From contig NZ_MJEI01000101.1 in the NCBI RefSeq assembly GCF_002095395.1, positions 1 to 64,000 on the forward strand: a stretch of DNA of 64,000 nt, read 5' to 3'. Positions 43,740-51,191 of the stretch are shown one piece after another. The DNA is from Williamsia sp. 1135 (GTDB lineage Bacteria > Actinomycetota > Actinomycetes > Mycobacteriales > Mycobacteriaceae). The notes under the pieces are model-generated. The model was not told where the DNA came from and did not search any database. It saw nothing but the letters and a program-made list of their open reading frames with translations. Every line of letters begins with the position of its first letter. Within the stretch, counting starts at the first letter, position 1. The position numbers and the translations under genes were made by a program.

Positions 43740-44823
43740 GCCCATCGGCGATGCTCTGGCGCGCCCGCCGCTGCTCGGTGGCGTCGAGTTCGTCCCACGG
43801 CAGCCCCGTCGAACGGCGCAGGGTGAGCATCACGCGTTCGGTGTGCTGATCATCTGTCGTCAACTCCTCCGTGCCGGCGACCGGGAGTTCGCCTGCTCCG
43901 ACCGCCGCGGCATATTTCGCCGGGTGCTTGTGATTCCACCAGCGGACACCGGCCACATGTGAGTGCGCTCCCGGGCCCGCGCCCCACCAGTCCGCGCTGT
44001 CCCAGTAGCCGAGATTGTGGCGGCACAGAGCGTCGGGAACGCCGATACTCGCCCAGTTCGACACCTCGTACCACTGCATTCCGGCCGCGGTGAGGGCTGA
44101 ATCGATCATCTCGTAGCGCGAGGCCAGCACGTCGTCGTCCGGAGCCGGTAGCTCGCCGCGGCGGACCTTGCGCGCCAGCGCCGTGCCGTCTTCGACGATC
44201 AGCGCGTAGGCGGAGACGTGGTCCACTCCGGCTGCGAGGACGGCATCGAGTGATGCGCGCAGGTCTTCGTCTCGCTCCCCCGGCGTTCCGTAGATGAGAT
44301 CGAGGTTCACGTGCTCGAGGCCTGCGGCGCGCGCCTCGAGGGCTGCAGCCACCGCGCGGCCCGGGGTGTGCGTGCGGTCGAGAACCTTGAGCACGTGACT
44401 TGCGGCCGACTGCATGCCCAGCGAGACACGGGTGAAACCGCTCGCGGCGATCCCCTCGAAAAACGCCGGCGAGGTCGACTCCGGATTCGACTCGGTGGTG
44501 ATCTCGGCGCCCGGCGCGATGTCGAAGTACCGCCGCACCGAGGCCAGGACGTCGCCGAGCCCCTCGGCCCCCAGCAGCGACGGGGTGCCACCGCCGACGA
44601 AGATCGTGGACACCGGACGCACGGGTGCCAGTTGTCGCGCCGCCATCGCCAGCTCGCCGTCGAGGGCGCTCAGCCACTGATCGGTCGACGCAGCCGTTCC
44701 GAGCTCGCCGGCCGTATAGGTGTTGAAGTCGCAGTATCCACAGCGCGTCGCGCAGAACGGGACGTGAATGTAGAGCCCGAGAGGCGTCTCGGTGTGCGAT
44801 CGCGGGATCAGAATGTTCGACAT
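43651..44823 (-). CDS. hemW: Radical SAM heme chaperone HemW
   Basis: 390 aa. The radical-SAM cluster motif is Cys24-x3-Cys28-x2-Cys31 (CATRCGYC). GGGTPS, the NPES segment and the GTPGE motif follow. Proteins of this type resemble oxygen-independent coproporphyrinogen dehydrogenase HemN but lack its N-terminal determinants and act as heme chaperones; the M. tuberculosis counterpart is annotated hemN (Rv2388c). The ATG is at 44823. The 3' end overlaps the convergent hypothetical gene. In M. tuberculosis the mycobactin genes separate these two; here they adjoin. Confidence 0.88.
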   Translation of the reverse strand: MSNILIPRSHTETPLGLYIHVPFCATRCGYCDFNTYTAGELGTAASTDQWLSALDGELAMAARQLAPVRPVSTIFVGGGTPSLLGAEGLGDVLASVRRYFDIAPGAEITTESNPESTSPAFFEGIAASGFTRVSLGMQSAASHVLKVLDRTHTPGRAVAAALEARAAGLEHVNLDLIYGTPGERDEDLRASLDAVLAAGVDHVSAYALIVEDGTALARKVRRGELPAPDDDVLASRYEMIDSALTAAGMQWYEVSNWASIGVPDALCRHNLGYWDSADWWGAGPGAHSHVAGVRWWNHKHPAKYAAAVGAGELPVAGTEELTTDDQHTERVMLTLRRSTGLPWDELDATEQRRARQSIADGLTELVGQSLVLSSRGRLLADGVVRNLLAG

Positions 44824-44895
44824 CGTGGTTCGATCATCCCAGCAGGGCCGGTCGCAACGCCAAACGCGCCGGCCGCGATCGACCGGGGGTCCGCG

Positions 44896-45453
44896 ATGAC
44901 AGCGTCCAGCAGGGCAAACACGAAGATCGAATGGCCGAAGCGTCTTCTCGTACTGACGTCGCTGCGATCGCTCGCCACGGTCGTCGTGTATCTCGTGGCG
45001 TACTTCGCACTGCCGTGGAAGTCCTTCGACGACTGGGCGGGATTGGCCATTGTGGTGGCGTTTCTCGGGGTCGCCCTGCTGACCGCGGTATGGCAGATCG
45101 GTCAGATCATGCGGTCGGCCACGCCCGCGGTCAAGGCCATCGAGGCATTGGCGATCATCGCGCCGATCTACCTGCTCGCGTTCTCCCTCGGGTACTACAT
45201 GCTCTCGGTCAACGACCCGGCTCAGTTCAACGAGCCACTGTCGCGGATGAGCTCGCTGTACTTCACGATCTCGGTGTTCGCGACCGTCGGTTTCGGCGAC
45301 ATCACCGCCTCGGTCGACGTGTCGCGCGCGGTGGTGACCGTGCAGATGGTGCTCAACCTGATCGTGGTGGGCGTGGGGATCAAGATCATCCTGGCCGCGG
45401 TGAAGTGGGGGCGCGACCTCAAGAAGTCACAAACTCCGCCGCCCGGGGAATGA
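44896..45453 (+). CDS. Potassium-channel-like membrane protein (Ion_trans_2)
   Basis: 185 aa. Four hydrophobic segments lie at about residues 17-38, 47-67, 82-103 and 145-168. A selectivity filter TVGFGD at 130-135, in a pore loop FTISVFATVGFGDITA, comes before the last helix, so the pore unit is the third and fourth helices. No cytoplasmic RCK domain is present; the tail is short and basic (WGRDLKK). It should assemble as a tetramer. ATG at 44896; longer in-frame readings run antisense to hemW. It lies 72 bp after the divergent hemW start. Confidence 0.8.
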   Translation: MTASSRANTKIEWPKRLLVLTSLRSLATVVVYLVAYFALPWKSFDDWAGLAIVVAFLGVALLTAVWQIGQIMRSATPAVKAIEALAIIAPIYLLAFSLGYYMLSVNDPAQFNEPLSRMSSLYFTISVFATVGFGDITASVDVSRAVVTVQMVLNLIVVGVGIKIILAAVKWGRDLKKSQTPPPGE

Positions 45454-45561
45454 GCCTCACAGCGTCGTTGTTGGAAATGCAAAGACCGGCTGGCAATGCA
45501 CTTCGACTCGCCATGAGTCGAACTAAGCCCAAGTAGACGCACCAAGGGAGGCCGTGGCACT

Positions 45562-45651
45562 ATGGGCGACGTGACTTCTCAAGGGGTGTGGCTCGCGATG
45601 CGGCGGCACATTGATCTCAAGCGCGCATGCAGCGCGCTGTGTCATAACTAG
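45562..45651 (+). CDS. Cysteine leader peptide upstream of the sulfite reductase operon
   Basis: 29 codons. The peptide begins MGDVTSQGVW and its second half reads RRHIDLKRACSALC, ending HN. The RRHxDLxRxxSALC pattern matches short peptides annotated as putative leader peptides before sulfur and cysteine genes in Streptomyces and relatives. Two Cys codons at positions 23 and 27 would stall ribosomes when cysteinyl-tRNA is short. AAGGGAGG lies 10 nt before the ATG. The sirA start is 148 nt beyond the stop. The gap holds the stem GGAC-T-CCGGG (45738-45747) / CCCGG-GTCC just before the sirA ribosome-binding site, and a CCCTCC tract that could pair with it. Confidence 0.7.
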   Translation: MGDVTSQGVWLAMRRHIDLKRACSALCHN

Positions 45652-45798
45652 TCCGTACGTTCCGTAGCGACCCGCAGCCCGGGTTCGCGCAGGTCTGAAC
45701 ACGTGCGACTTCCGCCCTCCCCTTCATCCATTTGCAGGACTCCGGGTGCCATCGGCACTTGTTCGCGGCTGCCCCGGGTCCGCCAGACAGGAGCATTC

Positions 45799-47499
45799 AT
45801 GACGTCGACAGCCGACGCCCCCGGGAAACCGGCCAAGCGCGCACGACCCGCGAAACGGCGCGCAGAAGGGCAGTGGGCTCTCGGATATCGCGAGCCGCTC
45901 AACGCCAACGAGCAGGCCAAGAAGGACGACAATCCGCTCAACGTCCGGGCCCGGATCGAGAACATCTACTCCAAGCAGGGCTTCGACTCTATCGACAAGG
46001 GCGATCTGCGCGGCCGGATGCGCTGGTGGGGGCTCTATACCCAGCGCGCCGAGGGTTACGACGGCACGTGGACCGGCGATGACAACCTCGACCTCCTCGA
46101 GGCCCGGCATTTCATGATGCGGGTCCGCTGCGACGGCGGGGCCCTGACCACCGATCAGCTCCGCACGGTCGGGCAGTTGTCCACCGAGTTCGCCCGTGAC
46201 ACCGCCGATCTCTCCGATCGCGAGAACGTCCAGTACCACTGGATCAACATCGAGAACGTCCCCGAGATCTTCGAGCGGCTCGAATCGGTCGGTCTCAAGA
46301 CCACCGAGGCCTGCGGCGACTGCCCGCGCATCATCCTCGGTTCACCGCTGGCCGGGGAAGCCACCGACGAGGTCCTCGACCCCACCCCGGCGATCGACGA
46401 GATCGTCCGCCGGTACATCGGCGACCCGAAGTACTCCAACCTCCCCCGCAAGTTCAAAACGGCCATCTCCGGTCTGCAGGACGTCGCCCACGAGATCAAC
46501 GACGTCGCCTTCATCGGCGTCAACCACCCCGAACACGGTCCGGGACTGGATCTCTGGGTCGGTGGCGGCCTTTCCACCAACCCGATGCTCGCCCAACGCG
46601 TCGGCGCCTGGATCCCACTCGACGAGGTCCCCGACGTGTGGGAGGCCGTCGTCTCGGTCTTCCGCGACTACGGTTACCGCCGGCTGCGCACCAAGGCTCG
46701 CCTGAAGTTCCTGATCAAGGACTGGGGCATCGAGAAGTTCCGCCAGGTGCTCGAGGACGAGTACCTCGGCCGCAAACTGGTCGACGGTCCCGCCCCGATC
46801 CCGCTGACCGCGCCGCGTGACCACATCGGTGTCCAGAAACTCAAGAGCGGGCTGAACTCCGTCGGATTCGCCGCCATCGCAGGCCGTGTGTCCGGGACGA
46901 AGCTGACCGCTGTGGCCGACGCCGCCGAGCGCGCAGGGTCGAATCGGATCCGCTTCACGCCGTACCAGAAGCTGGTCGTTCTCGACGTTCCCGACGACAA
47001 GGTCGAGCAGCTCATCGAGGAGATCGCCCCGCACGGACTCGAGGCCCGGCCCTCGCCGTGGCGACGGAACCTGATGGCCTGCTCGGGTATCGAGTTCTGC
47101 AAGCTCTCGTTCACCGAGACCCGTAAGCGGTCGCAGGTGCTGGTGCCCGAGCTCGAGAAGCGACTCGCGGATGTCAACGAGCAGCTCGATGTGCCGATCA
47201 CCGTCAACATCAACGGTTGCCCCAACTCGTGCGCCCGCGCTCAGATCGCCGACATCGGCTTCAAGGGCATGTTGGTCGAGGATGGCGACGGCAACACCGT
47301 TGACGGGTTCCAGGTCCATCTCGGCGGCAGCCTCGGACAAGATTCGGCTTTCGGCCGAAAGTTGCGCCAGCACAAGGTGCTCTCGGGTGAGATCGGCGAC
47401 TACATGGACCGGGTGGTCCGGAACTTCATCAAGGAACGGAACGAGGGCGAACGGTTTGCGGAGTGGGCGGTTCGCGCCGATGAGGAGGAATTGCGATGA
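45799..47499 (+). CDS. sirA: Ferredoxin-dependent sulfite reductase
   Basis: 566 aa. SirA reduces sulfite to sulfide with six electrons from ferredoxin, using siroheme bridged to a 4Fe-4S cluster. The cluster cysteines are Cys428 and Cys434 (ACSGIEFC) and Cys474 and Cys478 (GCPNSC). An N-terminal ferrodoxin-like repeat and the second ferredoxin-like half are both present. The ATG at 45799 has ACAGGAG about 6 nt upstream; an in-frame GTG at 45703 is too far from any site. The stop overlaps cysH (ATGA). This corresponds to M. tuberculosis sirA/nirA (Rv2391). Confidence 0.93.
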   Translation: MTSTADAPGKPAKRARPAKRRAEGQWALGYREPLNANEQAKKDDNPLNVRARIENIYSKQGFDSIDKGDLRGRMRWWGLYTQRAEGYDGTWTGDDNLDLLEARHFMMRVRCDGGALTTDQLRTVGQLSTEFARDTADLSDRENVQYHWINIENVPEIFERLESVGLKTTEACGDCPRIILGSPLAGEATDEVLDPTPAIDEIVRRYIGDPKYSNLPRKFKTAISGLQDVAHEINDVAFIGVNHPEHGPGLDLWVGGGLSTNPMLAQRVGAWIPLDEVPDVWEAVVSVFRDYGYRRLRTKARLKFLIKDWGIEKFRQVLEDEYLGRKLVDGPAPIPLTAPRDHIGVQKLKSGLNSVGFAAIAGRVSGTKLTAVADAAERAGSNRIRFTPYQKLVVLDVPDDKVEQLIEEIAPHGLEARPSPWRRNLMACSGIEFCKLSFTETRKRSQVLVPELEKRLADVNEQLDVPITVNINGCPNSCARAQIADIGFKGMLVEDGDGNTVDGFQVHLGGSLGQDSAFGRKLRQHKVLSGEIGDYMDRVVRNFIKERNEGERFAEWAVRADEEELR

Positions 47500-48227
47500 G
47501 TACCGCTATTCGCGATGAGGCGAAGTTGCGTGACCTTGCCGAGCAGGGTGCCGCTCAACTCGGGCCGGACGCGTCGGCACAGGACCTGTTGCGGTGGACC
47601 GCCGACACGTTCGGCAGCGATTTCATCGTCGCGTCGAACATGCAGGATGCCGTGCTGATCGATGTCGCGGCCGCGGCGATCGACTCCGAGCAACTCGGAG
47701 GGGACAAGCTCAAGGTGCTGTTCCTCGACACGGGATATCACTTCGCCGAAACCCTCGGCACGCGCGATGCCGTCGAACACGTCTACGGCGTCGAGATCGT
47801 GAACGCGAAAGCCGAACAGTCTGTCGCGCAACAGGATGCCACCGTCGGTCGCAATCTGTTCGCCACCAACCCCGGAGAGTGCTGCCGCCTGCGTAAGGTG
47901 GTGCCGCTCAAGCGTGAGCTGTCCGGCTACCAGGCCTGGGTCAGCGGTATCCGCCGGGTCGAGTCGCCCACCCGCGCCAACGCACCGCTGATCTCCTTCG
48001 ACGACGCCTTCGGACTGGTGAAGATCAACCCCCTCGCGGCGTGGTCGGACGAGCAGTTCCAGGAGTACATCGACACCAACGGTGTCCTGGTCAATCCCCT
48101 TGTCGATGAGGGCTACCCCTCGATCGGCTGCGCGCCGTGCACCAGTAAGCCGGTGGAAGGCGCTGATCCTCGAAGCGGCCGTTGGGCCGGTCTTGCCAAA
48201 ACAGAATGCGGGTTGCACGCCTCATGA
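47496..48227 (+). CDS. cysH: APS reductase (thioredoxin-dependent)
   Basis: 243 aa. CysH reduces adenylyl-sulfate to sulfite and AMP. Two cysteine pairs ligate a 4Fe-4S cluster: Cys129-Cys130 (ECCRLRK) and Cys212-x2-Cys215 (GCAPC). The catalytic C-terminal Cys is Cys238 in TECGLH. The cluster pair marks an APS rather than PAPS reductase, so no APS kinase is needed in this route, consistent with the shortened cysN. ATGA overlaps on both sides with sirA and cysD show translational coupling. Confidence 0.94.
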   Translation: MSTAIRDEAKLRDLAEQGAAQLGPDASAQDLLRWTADTFGSDFIVASNMQDAVLIDVAAAAIDSEQLGGDKLKVLFLDTGYHFAETLGTRDAVEHVYGVEIVNAKAEQSVAQQDATVGRNLFATNPGECCRLRKVVPLKRELSGYQAWVSGIRRVESPTRANAPLISFDDAFGLVKINPLAAWSDEQFQEYIDTNGVLVNPLVDEGYPSIGCAPCTSKPVEGADPRSGRWAGLAKTECGLHAS

Positions 48228-49162
48228 CCGTTGAACAGAGCACCGACCTGCTGCCGGTGGACACAGACGACGAGTTCACCACCCTCGATGCCCTCGAGTC
48301 CGAGGCCATCCACATCTTCCGCGAGGTCGCGGGCGAGTTCGAGCGCCCCGTGATCCTCTTCTCGGGTGGCAAGGACTCCACGGTGCTGCTGCACGTGGCA
48401 TTGAAGGCGTTCTGGCCTGCGCCGCTGCCGTTTTCGCTGCTGCACGTCGACACCGGACACAACCTGCCCGAGGTGCTGGAGTTCCGCGATGACGTCGTCG
48501 AACGCCACAACCTCCGGCTGCATGTAGCCAAGGTCGAGGACTACCTCGCCGACGGGCGGCTGTCGGAGCGGCCCGACGGGATCCGGAATCCGTTGCAGAC
48601 CGTGCCGTTGCTCGACGGGATCACCGAGAACCGTTTCGATGCGGTCTTCGGTGGCGCCCGCCGCGACGAGGAACGCTCTCGCGCCAAGGAGCGGATCTTT
48701 TCGCTGCGCAACGCGTTCGGCCAATGGGACCCCAAACGTCAGCGACCCGAGCTGTGGAACTTGTACAACGGCAAGCACGCACCGGGCGAGCATGTCCGCG
48801 TTTTCCCGCTGTCGAACTGGACCGAGCTCGACGTGTGGCGGTACATCGCTCGCGAACAGGTACTCCTGCCCTCGATCTACTACGCGCACGAGCGGCCCGT
48901 CTACTCACGCGACGGCATGTGGATGACCCCCGGCCCCTGGGGCGGTCCTGCCGAAGGCGAAGAGCTGAAGACCCTCTCGGTGCGCTACCGCACAGTGGGC
49001 GACGGATCCACCACCGGTGCCGTGCTGTCCGACGCCACCGACAACGAGATGGTTCTCGCCGAGGTCGCCGCATCCCGCCTGACCGAGCGCGGTGCCACCC
49101 GCGGCGACGACCGGGTGTCCGAGGCTGCCATGGAAGACCGTAAACGCGAAGGCTATTTCTGA
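48224..49162 (+). CDS. cysD: Sulfate adenylyltransferase subunit 2
   Basis: 312 aa. CysD is the ATP-pyrophosphatase half that makes APS from sulfate and ATP with CysN. The PP-loop SGGKDS spans residues 47-52. HVDTGHN and the RRDEERSRAKER basic segment line the active site. The ATG at 48224 overlaps the cysH stop (ATGA); an in-frame upstream ATG at 48182 is inside cysH. The gene order cysD-cysN is standard. The stop overlaps cysN (TGATG). Confidence 0.95.
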   Translation: MTVEQSTDLLPVDTDDEFTTLDALESEAIHIFREVAGEFERPVILFSGGKDSTVLLHVALKAFWPAPLPFSLLHVDTGHNLPEVLEFRDDVVERHNLRLHVAKVEDYLADGRLSERPDGIRNPLQTVPLLDGITENRFDAVFGGARRDEERSRAKERIFSLRNAFGQWDPKRQRPELWNLYNGKHAPGEHVRVFPLSNWTELDVWRYIAREQVLLPSIYYAHERPVYSRDGMWMTPGPWGGPAEGEELKTLSVRYRTVGDGSTTGAVLSDATDNEMVLAEVAASRLTERGATRGDDRVSEAAMEDRKREGYF

Positions 49163-50472
49163 TGACAAACGCCTCTGAATTGCACGCTCCGGATCTACTG
49201 CGCCTCGCCACTGCGGGCAGCGTCGACGACGGCAAGTCCACCCTGGTGGGCCGGCTGCTCTACGACACGAAGTCTGTGCTCGCCGACCAGATCGACGCGG
49301 TCACCCGCGCCTCTGTCGACCGCGGGCTGGATCAGCCGGACCTGTCTCTGTTGGTCGACGGCCTGCGTGCCGAGCGTGAACAAGGCATCACCATCGACGT
49401 CGCCTACCGGTACTTCGCTACGCCGACAAGGTCTTTCGTACTCGCCGACACTCCCGGGCACGTCCAGTACACCCGAAACACCGTCTCCGGGGCATCAACT
49501 GCCGGGTTGGTGATCCTGCTCGTCGACGCGCGTAAGGGTGTCATCTCGCAGACCCGTCGCCACGCCGCGGTGATGGCGTTGCTCGGGGTCCCGCGTCTCG
49601 TGCTCGCGGTCAACAAGATCGACCTCGTCGATGACCCCGAGAAGGTGTTCGGCGAGATCCGCACCGAGTTCACCGACATGACCACCTCGCTCGGGTGGAG
49701 TGCCGACCGGGTCGTGTCCATCCCGGTGTCCGCTCTGCACGGCGACAACGTGGCGATCCGCTCCGAGAACACCCCGTTCTACGACGGTCCCACCCTCATC
49801 GAACACCTCGAATCCGTTCCGGCCAGCGAAGATCGCAAGCCGGTCGGCTTCCGCTTCCCCGTCCAGTACGTGATCCGTCCCCGTACCGCCGAGTACCCGG
49901 ACTACCGCGGTTACGCCGGTCAGGTCGCTGCCGGCCGGGTCACCGTCGGCGACGAGGTCGTGGTGTTGCCCTCGGGTACGCACACCACGGTCGAGCGCAT
50001 CGACACCGCTGACGGATCTCTGCAGTCGGCACACACCGGCCGCAGCATCACCGTGGTCCTCGCCGATGACGTCGACGTCTCCCGCGGCGACGTGATCGCA
50101 GCGGTCGCCGATGCGCCCGAACCGATCTCACAGTTCAGCGCGACCGTCTGCTGGCTGGGCGACAAGCCGTTGCGCCCCGGTGCGCGGCTGCTGCTGAAGC
50201 ACGGCGCCCGCACCACGCAAGCCATCGTCGGAGGACTCGAGGTCTTGTTCGACGAGCAGGAACTGGTCCTGCGTGACGCCCCGGACGCGTTGGAGCTCAA
50301 TCAGATCGGCCGCATCTCGGTCCAGACCGCTCAGCCGGTCAGCGCTGACGACTACAACACCAATCGTGAGACCGGTAGCTTCCTGCTGATCGATCCGCAG
50401 GGCGGAAACACCCTCGGGGCCGGGCTCGTGGGTGATGCACTGTCGTCATTGCACCTGAAAGAACTTGTGTGA
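49162..50472 (+). CDS. cysN: Sulfate adenylyltransferase subunit 1 (GTPase), no APS-kinase domain
   Basis: 436 aa elongation-factor-like GTPase that drives sulfate adenylylation with CysD. G1 GSVDDGKS at residues 19-26, G3 DTPGH, G4 NKID. The M. tuberculosis protein CysNC is about 614 aa with an APS kinase fused at the C-terminus; here the chain ends after the two beta-barrel domains and no kinase gene follows in the operon. With an APS-type CysH, PAPS is not needed for assimilation; sulfotransferase metabolism would then need a separate cysC elsewhere. ATG overlaps cysD. Confidence 0.93.
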   Translation: MTNASELHAPDLLRLATAGSVDDGKSTLVGRLLYDTKSVLADQIDAVTRASVDRGLDQPDLSLLVDGLRAEREQGITIDVAYRYFATPTRSFVLADTPGHVQYTRNTVSGASTAGLVILLVDARKGVISQTRRHAAVMALLGVPRLVLAVNKIDLVDDPEKVFGEIRTEFTDMTTSLGWSADRVVSIPVSALHGDNVAIRSENTPFYDGPTLIEHLESVPASEDRKPVGFRFPVQYVIRPRTAEYPDYRGYAGQVAAGRVTVGDEVVVLPSGTHTTVERIDTADGSLQSAHTGRSITVVLADDVDVSRGDVIAAVADAPEPISQFSATVCWLGDKPLRPGARLLLKHGARTTQAIVGGLEVLFDEQELVLRDAPDALELNQIGRISVQTAQPVSADDYNTNRETGSFLLIDPQGGNTLGAGLVGDALSSLHLKELV

Positions 50473-51191
50473 CAACACTTGTTCTCGCCGCTCACGGGAG
50501 CCGTGATCCGCGGTTCGCGGTGACCGTCGAGCGCATCGCGCACGCGGTCAGCGAGCGACTCGCCTGCGTCGACGTGCGCCTCGCCTATCTGGACCTCAAC
50601 GGCCCGATGGTCCAGCAGGTGCTCGCCGATTGCGAAGGCGACGTCGTGGTAGCTCCCCTATTGCTGTCGGCCGCGTTTCACAGCAAGGTCGACCTGCCTG
50701 CGATCATCGACGAAGCCTGCGCGACGAATCCGGCGATCAATGTTCGGCAGTTGCCGACGTTGGGCAGCGACCCCCGTCTGATCACTGCGCTCGCCGACCG
50801 CCTCGACGAGGTCGGGTTGCGGCCCACAGACGGTGTGCTGTTCACGGCGGTGGGCTCGAGCGATGACGCCGCCGACGGGTCTGTTCACCGACGCGCATCC
50901 GAGCTTGCGGCCGAGCTCGGCAATCCCCTCGTCCAGACGGTATTCGCCACTCGTCTGGGTACCGACAACAGCAATGTGCGCGCCGCCGTGCACCGCTTGC
51001 GTCTCGGCGGTGCACGGCGCATCGTCGTGAGCCCCTACTTCCTGTCGGCCGGGTTGCTGACGGAGCGCGTGGACGCTGCCGTCGATGCACTCGCCCCGGG
51101 GGCACAGATCGCCGGACCTCTTGGCGCGCACCCGCAATTGGTGGACGTCGTGTGCGATCGCTACCTGACCGCGGTTCACGCCACCGTCTGA
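50469..51191 (+). CDS. CbiX/SirB-type sirohydrochlorin chelatase
   Basis: 240 aa with two CbiX-like halves. The first half has LAAHGSRDPRF with the metal-binding His and PLLLSAAFHSKVDLP with the second; the second half repeats FTAVGSSDDAADG and VSPYFLSAGLLTERV but lacks the matching histidines. The family inserts Fe2+ or Co2+ into sirohydrochlorin. In an operon with sirA the obvious product is siroheme for sulfite reductase. GTG at 50469 overlaps the cysN stop (GTGA). The M. tuberculosis homologue is Rv2393. Confidence 0.85.
   Translation: MTTLVLAAHGSRDPRFAVTVERIAHAVSERLACVDVRLAYLDLNGPMVQQVLADCEGDVVVAPLLLSAAFHSKVDLPAIIDEACATNPAINVRQLPTLGSDPRLITALADRLDEVGLRPTDGVLFTAVGSSDDAADGSVHRRASELAAELGNPLVQTVFATRLGTDNSNVRAAVHRLRLGGARRIVVSPYFLSAGLLTERVDAAVDALAPGAQIAGPLGAHPQLVDVVCDRYLTAVHATV

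Follow-up and report, generated by a model that had tools for sequence, protein, structure and literature searches.

A putative cysteine leader peptide with a near-invariant UGU codon before the sirA operon of Williamsia sp. 1135

Introduction

Canestrari and co-workers are said to have described cysteine-responsive attenuation in Mycobacterium smegmatis in 2020. Cysteine leaders before actinobacterial cys operons had been predicted in 2005, in a paper that calls their mode of control unknown (PMC1262725). In another paper, RNA-seq and ribosome profiles accompany a cysteine uORF that precedes nirA/MSMEG_4527 on a leaderless mRNA (PMC4633059). To judge by its name, the NCBIfam family NF042936 (leader_Ms4527A) would correspond to this published uORF. 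In Rhodobacterales, the uORFC-8-2 motif before cysS is reported to use mostly UGC (PMC8632094).

Here, we analyse a short open reading frame (ORF) before the sulfite reductase gene sirA in a stretch of 64,000 nt from Williamsia sp. 1135 (hereafter the window). Like the Ms4527A family of Mycobacterium, this leader stands before sirA/nirA, has a probably leaderless layout and an RRHxDLKRxCS..C core, and carries cysteine codons just before its stop codon. Unlike that family, it has no contiguous cysteine run, only Cys20 and Cys24, and its match to NF042936 (E-value 9e-9, 34.8 bits) falls under the cut-off of 45. With the polycysteine leaderless sORFs of M. smegmatis, as papers citing them describe them, it shares a place at the head of a sulfur/cysteine operon and probably a leaderless start; it differs from them in lacking a run of adjacent cysteines. 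Against the second family, NF042934 (cis_reg_atten), it scores 18.2 bits, under the cut-off of 27. It has the R-x3-D-L-x-R-x5-C spacing of NF042934 leaders in Actinomycetes and their UGU at the last profile cysteine, whereas many other members have cysteine at profile position 12 (30/68) or 17 (27/68). The uORFC-8-2 motif is likewise a uORF with cysteine codons for which ribosome-mediated attenuation is proposed; it differs in its two tandem cysteine codons, dominant UGC and intrinsic terminator (PMC8632094), while UGU is fixed here and no terminator was found in 45400-45900.

Leader Reading Frame and Operon

The earlier note on this DNA had proposed a 29-codon ORF at 45562..45651 on the forward strand, translated as MGDVTSQGVWLAMRRHIDLKRACSALCHN, with an ATG start, a good ribosome-binding site and cysteine codons at positions 23 and 27. 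The reading frame is real and conserved, but the alignment of relatives moves the start to a GTG at 45571, which shortens the ORF and renumbers the cysteines as 20 and 24. For this analysis we aligned 19 Williamsia and Gordonia leaders, and 169 of 171 loci could be read (L076 and L132, both cut before the leader, were dropped). Of 145 unique upstream regions, 143 contain a CANNAT-type hexamer that follows GG and stands 6-7 nt 5' of an in-frame GTG or ATG (9/9 in Williamsia, 49/50 in Gordonia and 85/86 in the others). In the window this hexamer is CACTAT (45558..45563, +), a −10-like element with three of six matches to TATAAT, and the proposed ATG at 45562 is its final AT followed by G. An open in-frame ATG at the equivalent position occurs in 8/9 Williamsia and 47/49 Gordonia, and in 36/85 of the others; W. 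deligens (L073) and one Gordonia locus (L203) have a 6-nt spacer that puts the ATG out of frame, from where it runs into TGA. Nor did the ribosome-binding site hold up, as an RBS-like string precedes the ATG in only 4/9 Williamsia, 5/49 Gordonia and 0/85 others. The string itself, GGGAGG (45546..45551, +), lies in the promoter spacer, is mostly not conserved in Gordonia and is probably outside the mRNA. On the grounds of the alignment, the hexamer overlap and the poor conservation of the RBS-like string, we reject ATG 45562 with GGGAGG as the start. Given the hexamer-to-GTG layout across relatives, the leader is most likely a 26-codon ORF plus TAG (45571..45651, +), predicted to encode VTSQGVWLAMRRHIDLKRACSALCHN with fMet as first residue.

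Eighteen nucleotides 5' of the hexamer is a putative −35-like element, TAGACG, inside CAAGTAGACG (45534..45539, +), and the block AAGTAGAC is near-invariant at this distance in the 19-sequence alignment. The promoter reading rests on such conservation because a consensus scan of 45400-45900 gave zero sigma-70-type promoters. A leaderless start, with RTG at the 5' end as in polycysteine attenuators, is favoured by the conserved hexamer/GTG layout, while the scan gave no consensus promoter; the mRNA would then be leaderless, with its 5' end at or near 45571. An ORF upstream on the same strand (44311-45453) ends about 80 nt before the −35-like element and holds a TVGFGD motif, which we take to be a filter-like motif of the K+ channel type.

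The leader lies just before sirA, as the earlier note had stated; we count 147 nt between its stop codon and the gene. A Shine-Dalgarno (SD) sequence, AGGAG (45789..45793, +), precedes the ATG of sirA at 45799. This sirA/nirA-type sulfite/nitrite reductase gene (45799..47499, +) keeps the name that it was given before; its best NCBIfam match is a ferredoxin--nitrite reductase at 327.5 bits, under the cut-off of 594, and the best named relatives of the protein are from W. soli (100%) and W. limnetica (98%). It is followed on the same strand by cysH (47496..48227), cysD (longest ORF 48182..49162) and cysN (49162..50472), all three with profile matches over cut-off, and by a sirohydrochlorin chelatase-like gene (50469..51191) with matches below cut-offs. 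In cysD, the profile match starts only at residue 30-35, which places the true start further in. All five ORFs touch or overlap.

Distribution of the Leader

We next looked at how widespread the leader is. NF042936 matches are found in all nine genomes of the genus (E ≤ 1, best E-values 5e-10 to 7e-6), and the conservation in relatives that the earlier note had named as a check goes beyond chance, at E = 9e-9 for the leader in the window. At E ≤ 0.001, 316 of the 401 genomes sampled from the family have matches, and these cover 27 of 31 genera. In a set of 59 Gordonia genomes, 52 match at this threshold. None of the nine genus genomes and none of the 59 Gordonia genomes has a match over the curated cut-off. 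All seven non-matching Gordonia genomes possess sirA, and before it a diverged leader (RRHIDLMRCDSASC) can be read in six; at the seventh locus, the script found no readable N-terminal region. This subtype, found in the Gordonia subgroup L199-L204, L196 and L197, has cysteine at codon 19 instead of 20 and is missed or scored low by NF042936. Genus labels of the relatives' loci are our assignments; we regard the L028-L057 set as partly Mycobacterium.

Across the class, 50 of 60 sampled genomes contain an NF042934 match. The pattern RRHxDLxRxxSxxC, which the earlier note had given as RRHxDLxRxxSALC for short peptides before sulfur-assimilation genes in Streptomyces, does mark leader peptides across Actinomycetes. 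Members of NF042936 are expected directly before sirA/nirA, and this is where the leader is located. By sequence comparison, it is a homologue of the published cysteine leader, below the formal cut-off and lacking a poly-Cys run. No match at E ≤ 1 to any of 4227 Rfam models was found in 44800-46200.

A Near-Invariant UGU Codon

The most interesting result to emerge from the aligned sequences is a near-invariant UGU codon at a fixed distance from a motif conserved at the peptide level. In the window, Cys24 is encoded by UGU (45640..45642, +) and Cys20 by UGC (45628..45630, +). Codon 24 is cysteine in 135 of 137 unique sirA leaders, and all 135 use UGU. Codon 20 in the same leaders, where it is cysteine, is UGC in 81 and UGU in 36, and cysteine at codon 23 is similarly mixed (37 UGC, 29 UGU). 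Within the first 500 codons of SirA from 81 loci, UGC outnumbers UGU by 564 to 7 (571 cysteine codons), and 45 long high-GC3 ORFs of the window contain 101 UGC and 37 UGU (138 cysteine codons). Where sirA leaders have a cysteine at codon 22, it is also UGU (39/39).

Class-wide, the last profile cysteine of NF042934-type leaders is UGU in 106 of 108 matches; these come from other families and are not all independent. UGU was found in 68 of the 68 read from the 69 best-scoring matches, which come from 39 genomes and 23 families, and in 38 of 40 weaker ones, some under cut-off. The other cysteine codons within these matches are 63 UGC and 10 UGU. The 108 were read out of 123 listed; those left aside were one at a contig end, five short of the last profile position, the eight weakest and the window genome's own match on contig C49, where the codon is UGU. 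As the profile was built on amino acids, the search cannot favour UGU. The sole two UGC codons at the key cysteine are in L339 and L349, the latter carrying a CCC run, so that its register may differ.

The draft of the window genome (107 contigs, 46 tRNA matches) has one tRNA-Cys, with anticodon GCA. With this as the only tRNA-Cys found, UGU needs a G-U wobble pair. A second tRNA-Cys for UGU was considered, and the 46 matches contain none. We also considered pairing with the SD as a general cause of UGU and rejected it: UGC would pair better in the group of other genera (−7.22 vs. −5.91), and across the class the base that follows is variable (C 52, T 13, A 2 and G 1 of 68). No report of the UGU rule was seen among the papers listed in searches of an open-licence library, although Canestrari 2020 may mention it. 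A near-invariant synonymous codon over 23 sampled families would offer a rare view of wobble decoding in amino-acid sensing, and if the rule is functional, replacing UGU with the synonymous UGC at codon 24 ought to have an effect.

Natural variants show which features of the leader may be dispensable. In 19 of 46 unique Gordonia leaders, codon 20 is Asn, Ala or Asp; 17 of the 46, with Asn or Ala there, are single-Cys leaders that keep Cys24 alone. One Williamsia genome (G008; L007/L198) has a one-base insertion after which the second UGU is no longer in frame; Cys20 remains, and the leader ends in RVCSALLS. This insertion is possibly a sequencing error.

Proposed Mechanism

The earlier note had suggested that cysteine supply controls the operon by ribosome-stalling attenuation. 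This gains from the homology to the published cysteine leader, but the folding model described below does not bear out the release of the SD. We consider cysteine-responsive attenuation of the sirA operon, through stalling on the leader and SD release, to be the best explanation and would give it even chances. It starts from what the alignments display, namely the leader, its conserved position, the hexamer-to-GTG layout, the peptide conservation and the fixed UGU. Transcription would begin at or near 45571, giving a leaderless mRNA on which the GTG is translated into a 26-residue leader. With plentiful Cys-tRNA, ribosomes would complete the leader and depart, and the RNA around codon 24 and/or 45687-45698 could then pair with the SD region of sirA, holding down translation of sirA and, through sirA, of the operon. 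Under a shortage of Cys-tRNA, a ribosome would stall at the cysteine codons, above all at UGU24, cover the codon-24 region and leave the SD free. We infer the transcription start, translation, stalling and direction of control, and likewise that control is translational rather than transcriptional. The sub-cut-off NF042936 score and the presence of just two separate cysteine codons count against this explanation.

Peptide Conservation and Possible Stalling

Selection on the leader is not limited to its cysteines. Codons 11-18 (45601..45624, +) encode RRHIDLKR, conserved at the amino-acid level. On a tree of SirA from 79 loci, which were picked by SirA similarity rather than by leader, codons 11, 12, 13, 15 and 18 (R11, R12, H13, D15 and R18) underwent 58 codon changes and no amino-acid changes. 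Codon 20 changed 16 times, four of these being amino-acid changes, and codon 24 a single time, in a locus with a shortened tract (L126, where codon 24 consequently reads CCC). In Gordonia, pN/pS is 0.08 at codons 11-18 and 0.38 at codons 2-10. Codon changes without amino-acid changes and the low pN/pS indicate, at the level of aligned codons, that the peptide itself is under selection beyond the cysteine codons alone.

The near-invariant UGU at a fixed distance from the peptide motif points to one stall site, perhaps aided by the nascent peptide. R11, R12/H13, D15 and R18 might sit in the exit tunnel and halt the ribosome at UGU24 under low Cys-tRNA, in which case one codon would suffice and poly-Cys would be an optional booster. 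TnaC-type arrest peptides carry conserved residues in the tunnel, roughly a dozen positions ahead of the codon at which they stall, and the putative leader would match them in this; their signal is free tryptophan, unlike in the candidate arrest here. Such assisted arrest would account for the 58 codon changes against none in amino acids, for Cys24 as the sole cysteine in 17 of 46 unique Gordonia leaders and for UGU at a fixed distance in 106 of 108 class-wide leaders. Against this, the conservation could serve another role of the peptide, among the class-wide matches the amino-acid motif is what the profile search itself picks out, and the Williamsia genome with the insertion keeps Cys20 rather than Cys24. 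We regard nascent-peptide-assisted arrest as possible, if somewhat unlikely; it is compatible with stalling and SD release, as it concerns the stall and not the switch.

More broadly, and as a tentative proposal, Actinomycete cysteine leaders may be single-site cysteine sensors, composed of a nascent R-x3-D-L-x-R and an obligatory UGU, rather than codon-counting poly-Cys attenuators. R-x3-D-L-x-R would set the ribosome, which would stop at UGU, at a fixed distance, when the level of Cys-tRNA drops; the UGU codon would double as part of the anti-SD in Gordonia, Williamsia and Nocardia. The leader in the window would then be a stripped-down version with two cysteine codons.

RNA Structure and Alternative Modes of Control

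The stems that the earlier note had seen between leader and sirA did not stand out: compared with shuffles, the RNA has no folding advantage (z −1.0 and −0.4). CCCTCC, which it had taken for an anti-SD, is within a C-rich, G-poor tract (45709..45733, +) that pairs with the SD region at −5.4 kcal/mol, while two other leader segments reach −10.4 and −7.3. For this weaker pairing we reject CCCTCC as the main anti-SD. The strongest complementary segment is GCGCAGGTCTGA (45687..45698, +; −10.4 kcal/mol), also the best in L006, L008 and L010. Second-best in the window is a candidate anti-SD overlapping Cys24 (45633..45647, +; −7.3 kcal/mol, in the top 9% of leader blocks).

Good SD complementarity at codon 24 is seen in the sequences of Williamsia, Gordonia and Nocardia. 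The 12-mers beginning 4-9 nt 5' of codon 24 rank high as SD partners, with lowest mean percentiles of.15 (9 Williamsia),.14 (44 Gordonia) and.10 (34 Nocardia) in a ranking that treats loci as independent. In Williamsia, the far-upstream offsets −65 and −54 come close to this rank. The Rhodococcus-like set has weak complementarity at codon 24, and in the L028-L057 set it lies a few bases further 3'. Compared with shuffled flanks of the SD, the true flank was equalled in 0 of 200 shuffles in Gordonia and 8 of 200 in Williamsia. When SD regions were swapped between loci, a leader's own was better in Gordonia (9/300), and not better in Williamsia (241/300) or the others (135/300).

The folding model addressed the switch directly. 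It computes, from whole-leader equilibrium folding, the cost of opening the SD with a ribosome footprint at chosen codons. In Gordonia (n = 58), the cost was 4.44 with the leader free and 4.35 with a ribosome at the first cysteine; in Williamsia (n = 12), it was 3.40 free, 3.46 at the first cysteine and 3.40 at the last. Placing the ribosome at the leader stop codon lowered the Williamsia value to 2.88. For the leader in the window, the costs were 3.9 free, 3.6 at the first cysteine, 3.9 at the last and 2.5 at the stop. The Williamsia means exclude L003, L007 and L061, where the script chose a wrong upstream GTG as sirA start, and the starts of the 58 Gordonia and 86 other rows are as picked by the script. 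In this model, a ribosome at the stop codon opens the SD more, which is opposite to the stall model. Sequestration of the ribosome-binding site thus finds SD complementarity at codon 24 in its favour and a folding model without SD release at the cysteine codons against it, and the switch is therefore supported in part only. The folding rows and the promoter scan both speak against parts of the best explanation.

The earlier note had also proposed comparing alternative stems in relatives, and a covarying hairpin at the stop codon did appear in Gordonia, but it is absent from the window's own clade. It begins at the Cys24 codon and closes just 3' of the leader stop codon. Its inner position pairs in 17 of 17 distinct versions (63 records; G-C 7, U-A 6, C-G 4), which was reached by 0 of 2000 shuffles, in which relatedness is lost; to place the 3' arm, the best fit of the five outer pairs was taken and the inner pair left unused. 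This count left out L196 and L197, and one analysis step left out L159, L196 and L197. The covariation thus joins the wobble base of codon 25 to a base close to the stop codon. In the L177 version, an outer pair is broken. RNAalifold on 28 of 43 unique Gordonia leaders found both-sided changes at just 2 of 24 pairs and a covariation term of −0.16, which is low because the aligner shifts the hairpin by one column.

Two further hairpins were noted in the window. In the predicted minimum free energy fold, a 7-bp hairpin, P0 (45620..45638, +; AGCGCGC-AUGCA-GCGCGCU), encloses the Cys20 codon; it belongs to the window clade, where sequences are few. A putative hairpin with CAGCC in its loop (45667..45688, +) was drawn by eye from the sequence, and CAGCC(C) in apparent hairpin loops between leader and sirA was also seen by eye in Gordonia, Rhodococcus and Nocardia.

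The failure of SD release in the folding runs is also a point in favour of Rho-dependent attenuation. After termination on the leader, Rho would load on the C-rich stretch before sirA and end transcription, whereas a stalled ribosome would alter RNA folding or coupling and let the polymerase pass. The tract at 45709-45733 is a possible loading site. A search for intrinsic terminators in 45400-45900 gave zero terminator-like sites (shuffles 0.4), and inspection of the Gordonia alignments by eye showed none either. Rho was proposed for mycobacterial cys leaders by Seliverstov in 2005, who called the prediction weak (PMC1262725). On the other hand, the C-rich tract starts about 57 nt 3' of the stop codon, probably beyond the cover of a ribosome on the leader, and the codon-24 SD complementarity is better than controls in three genera. 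We consider Rho-dependent attenuation unlikely.

A role of the leader product as a trans-acting small protein is very improbable: conservation of RRHxDLKR at the amino-acid level would suit it, but the place before sirA is conserved too, the peptide has a short, variable C-terminus, and a codon fixed at the RNA level is something that a trans-acting peptide would not need. That the ORF is incidental and only promoter DNA is conserved is barely credible, since although the ATG and RBS of the earlier note look like promoter parts, the substitutions after the GTG follow codon positions (pN/pS 0.08 at codons 11-18 in Gordonia).

Further Cysteine Leaders in the Genome

Two more cysteine leaders were observed in the window genome. 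One, on the minus strand of contig C49 (28678-28734), has the peptide MLTRRRAIDFCRIANCCCLSR with UGU at the key cysteine. The genes after it presumably encode a CysA2-like thiosulfate sulfurtransferase and an SseC-like protein, named from their translations, and it is likely the counterpart of the M. smegmatis cysA2 leader. The other, MLVRRLAVDLCRLGAQNCCL, on the plus strand of contig C91 (152969-153010), precedes an ABC permease that by eye is sulfonate/taurine-like.
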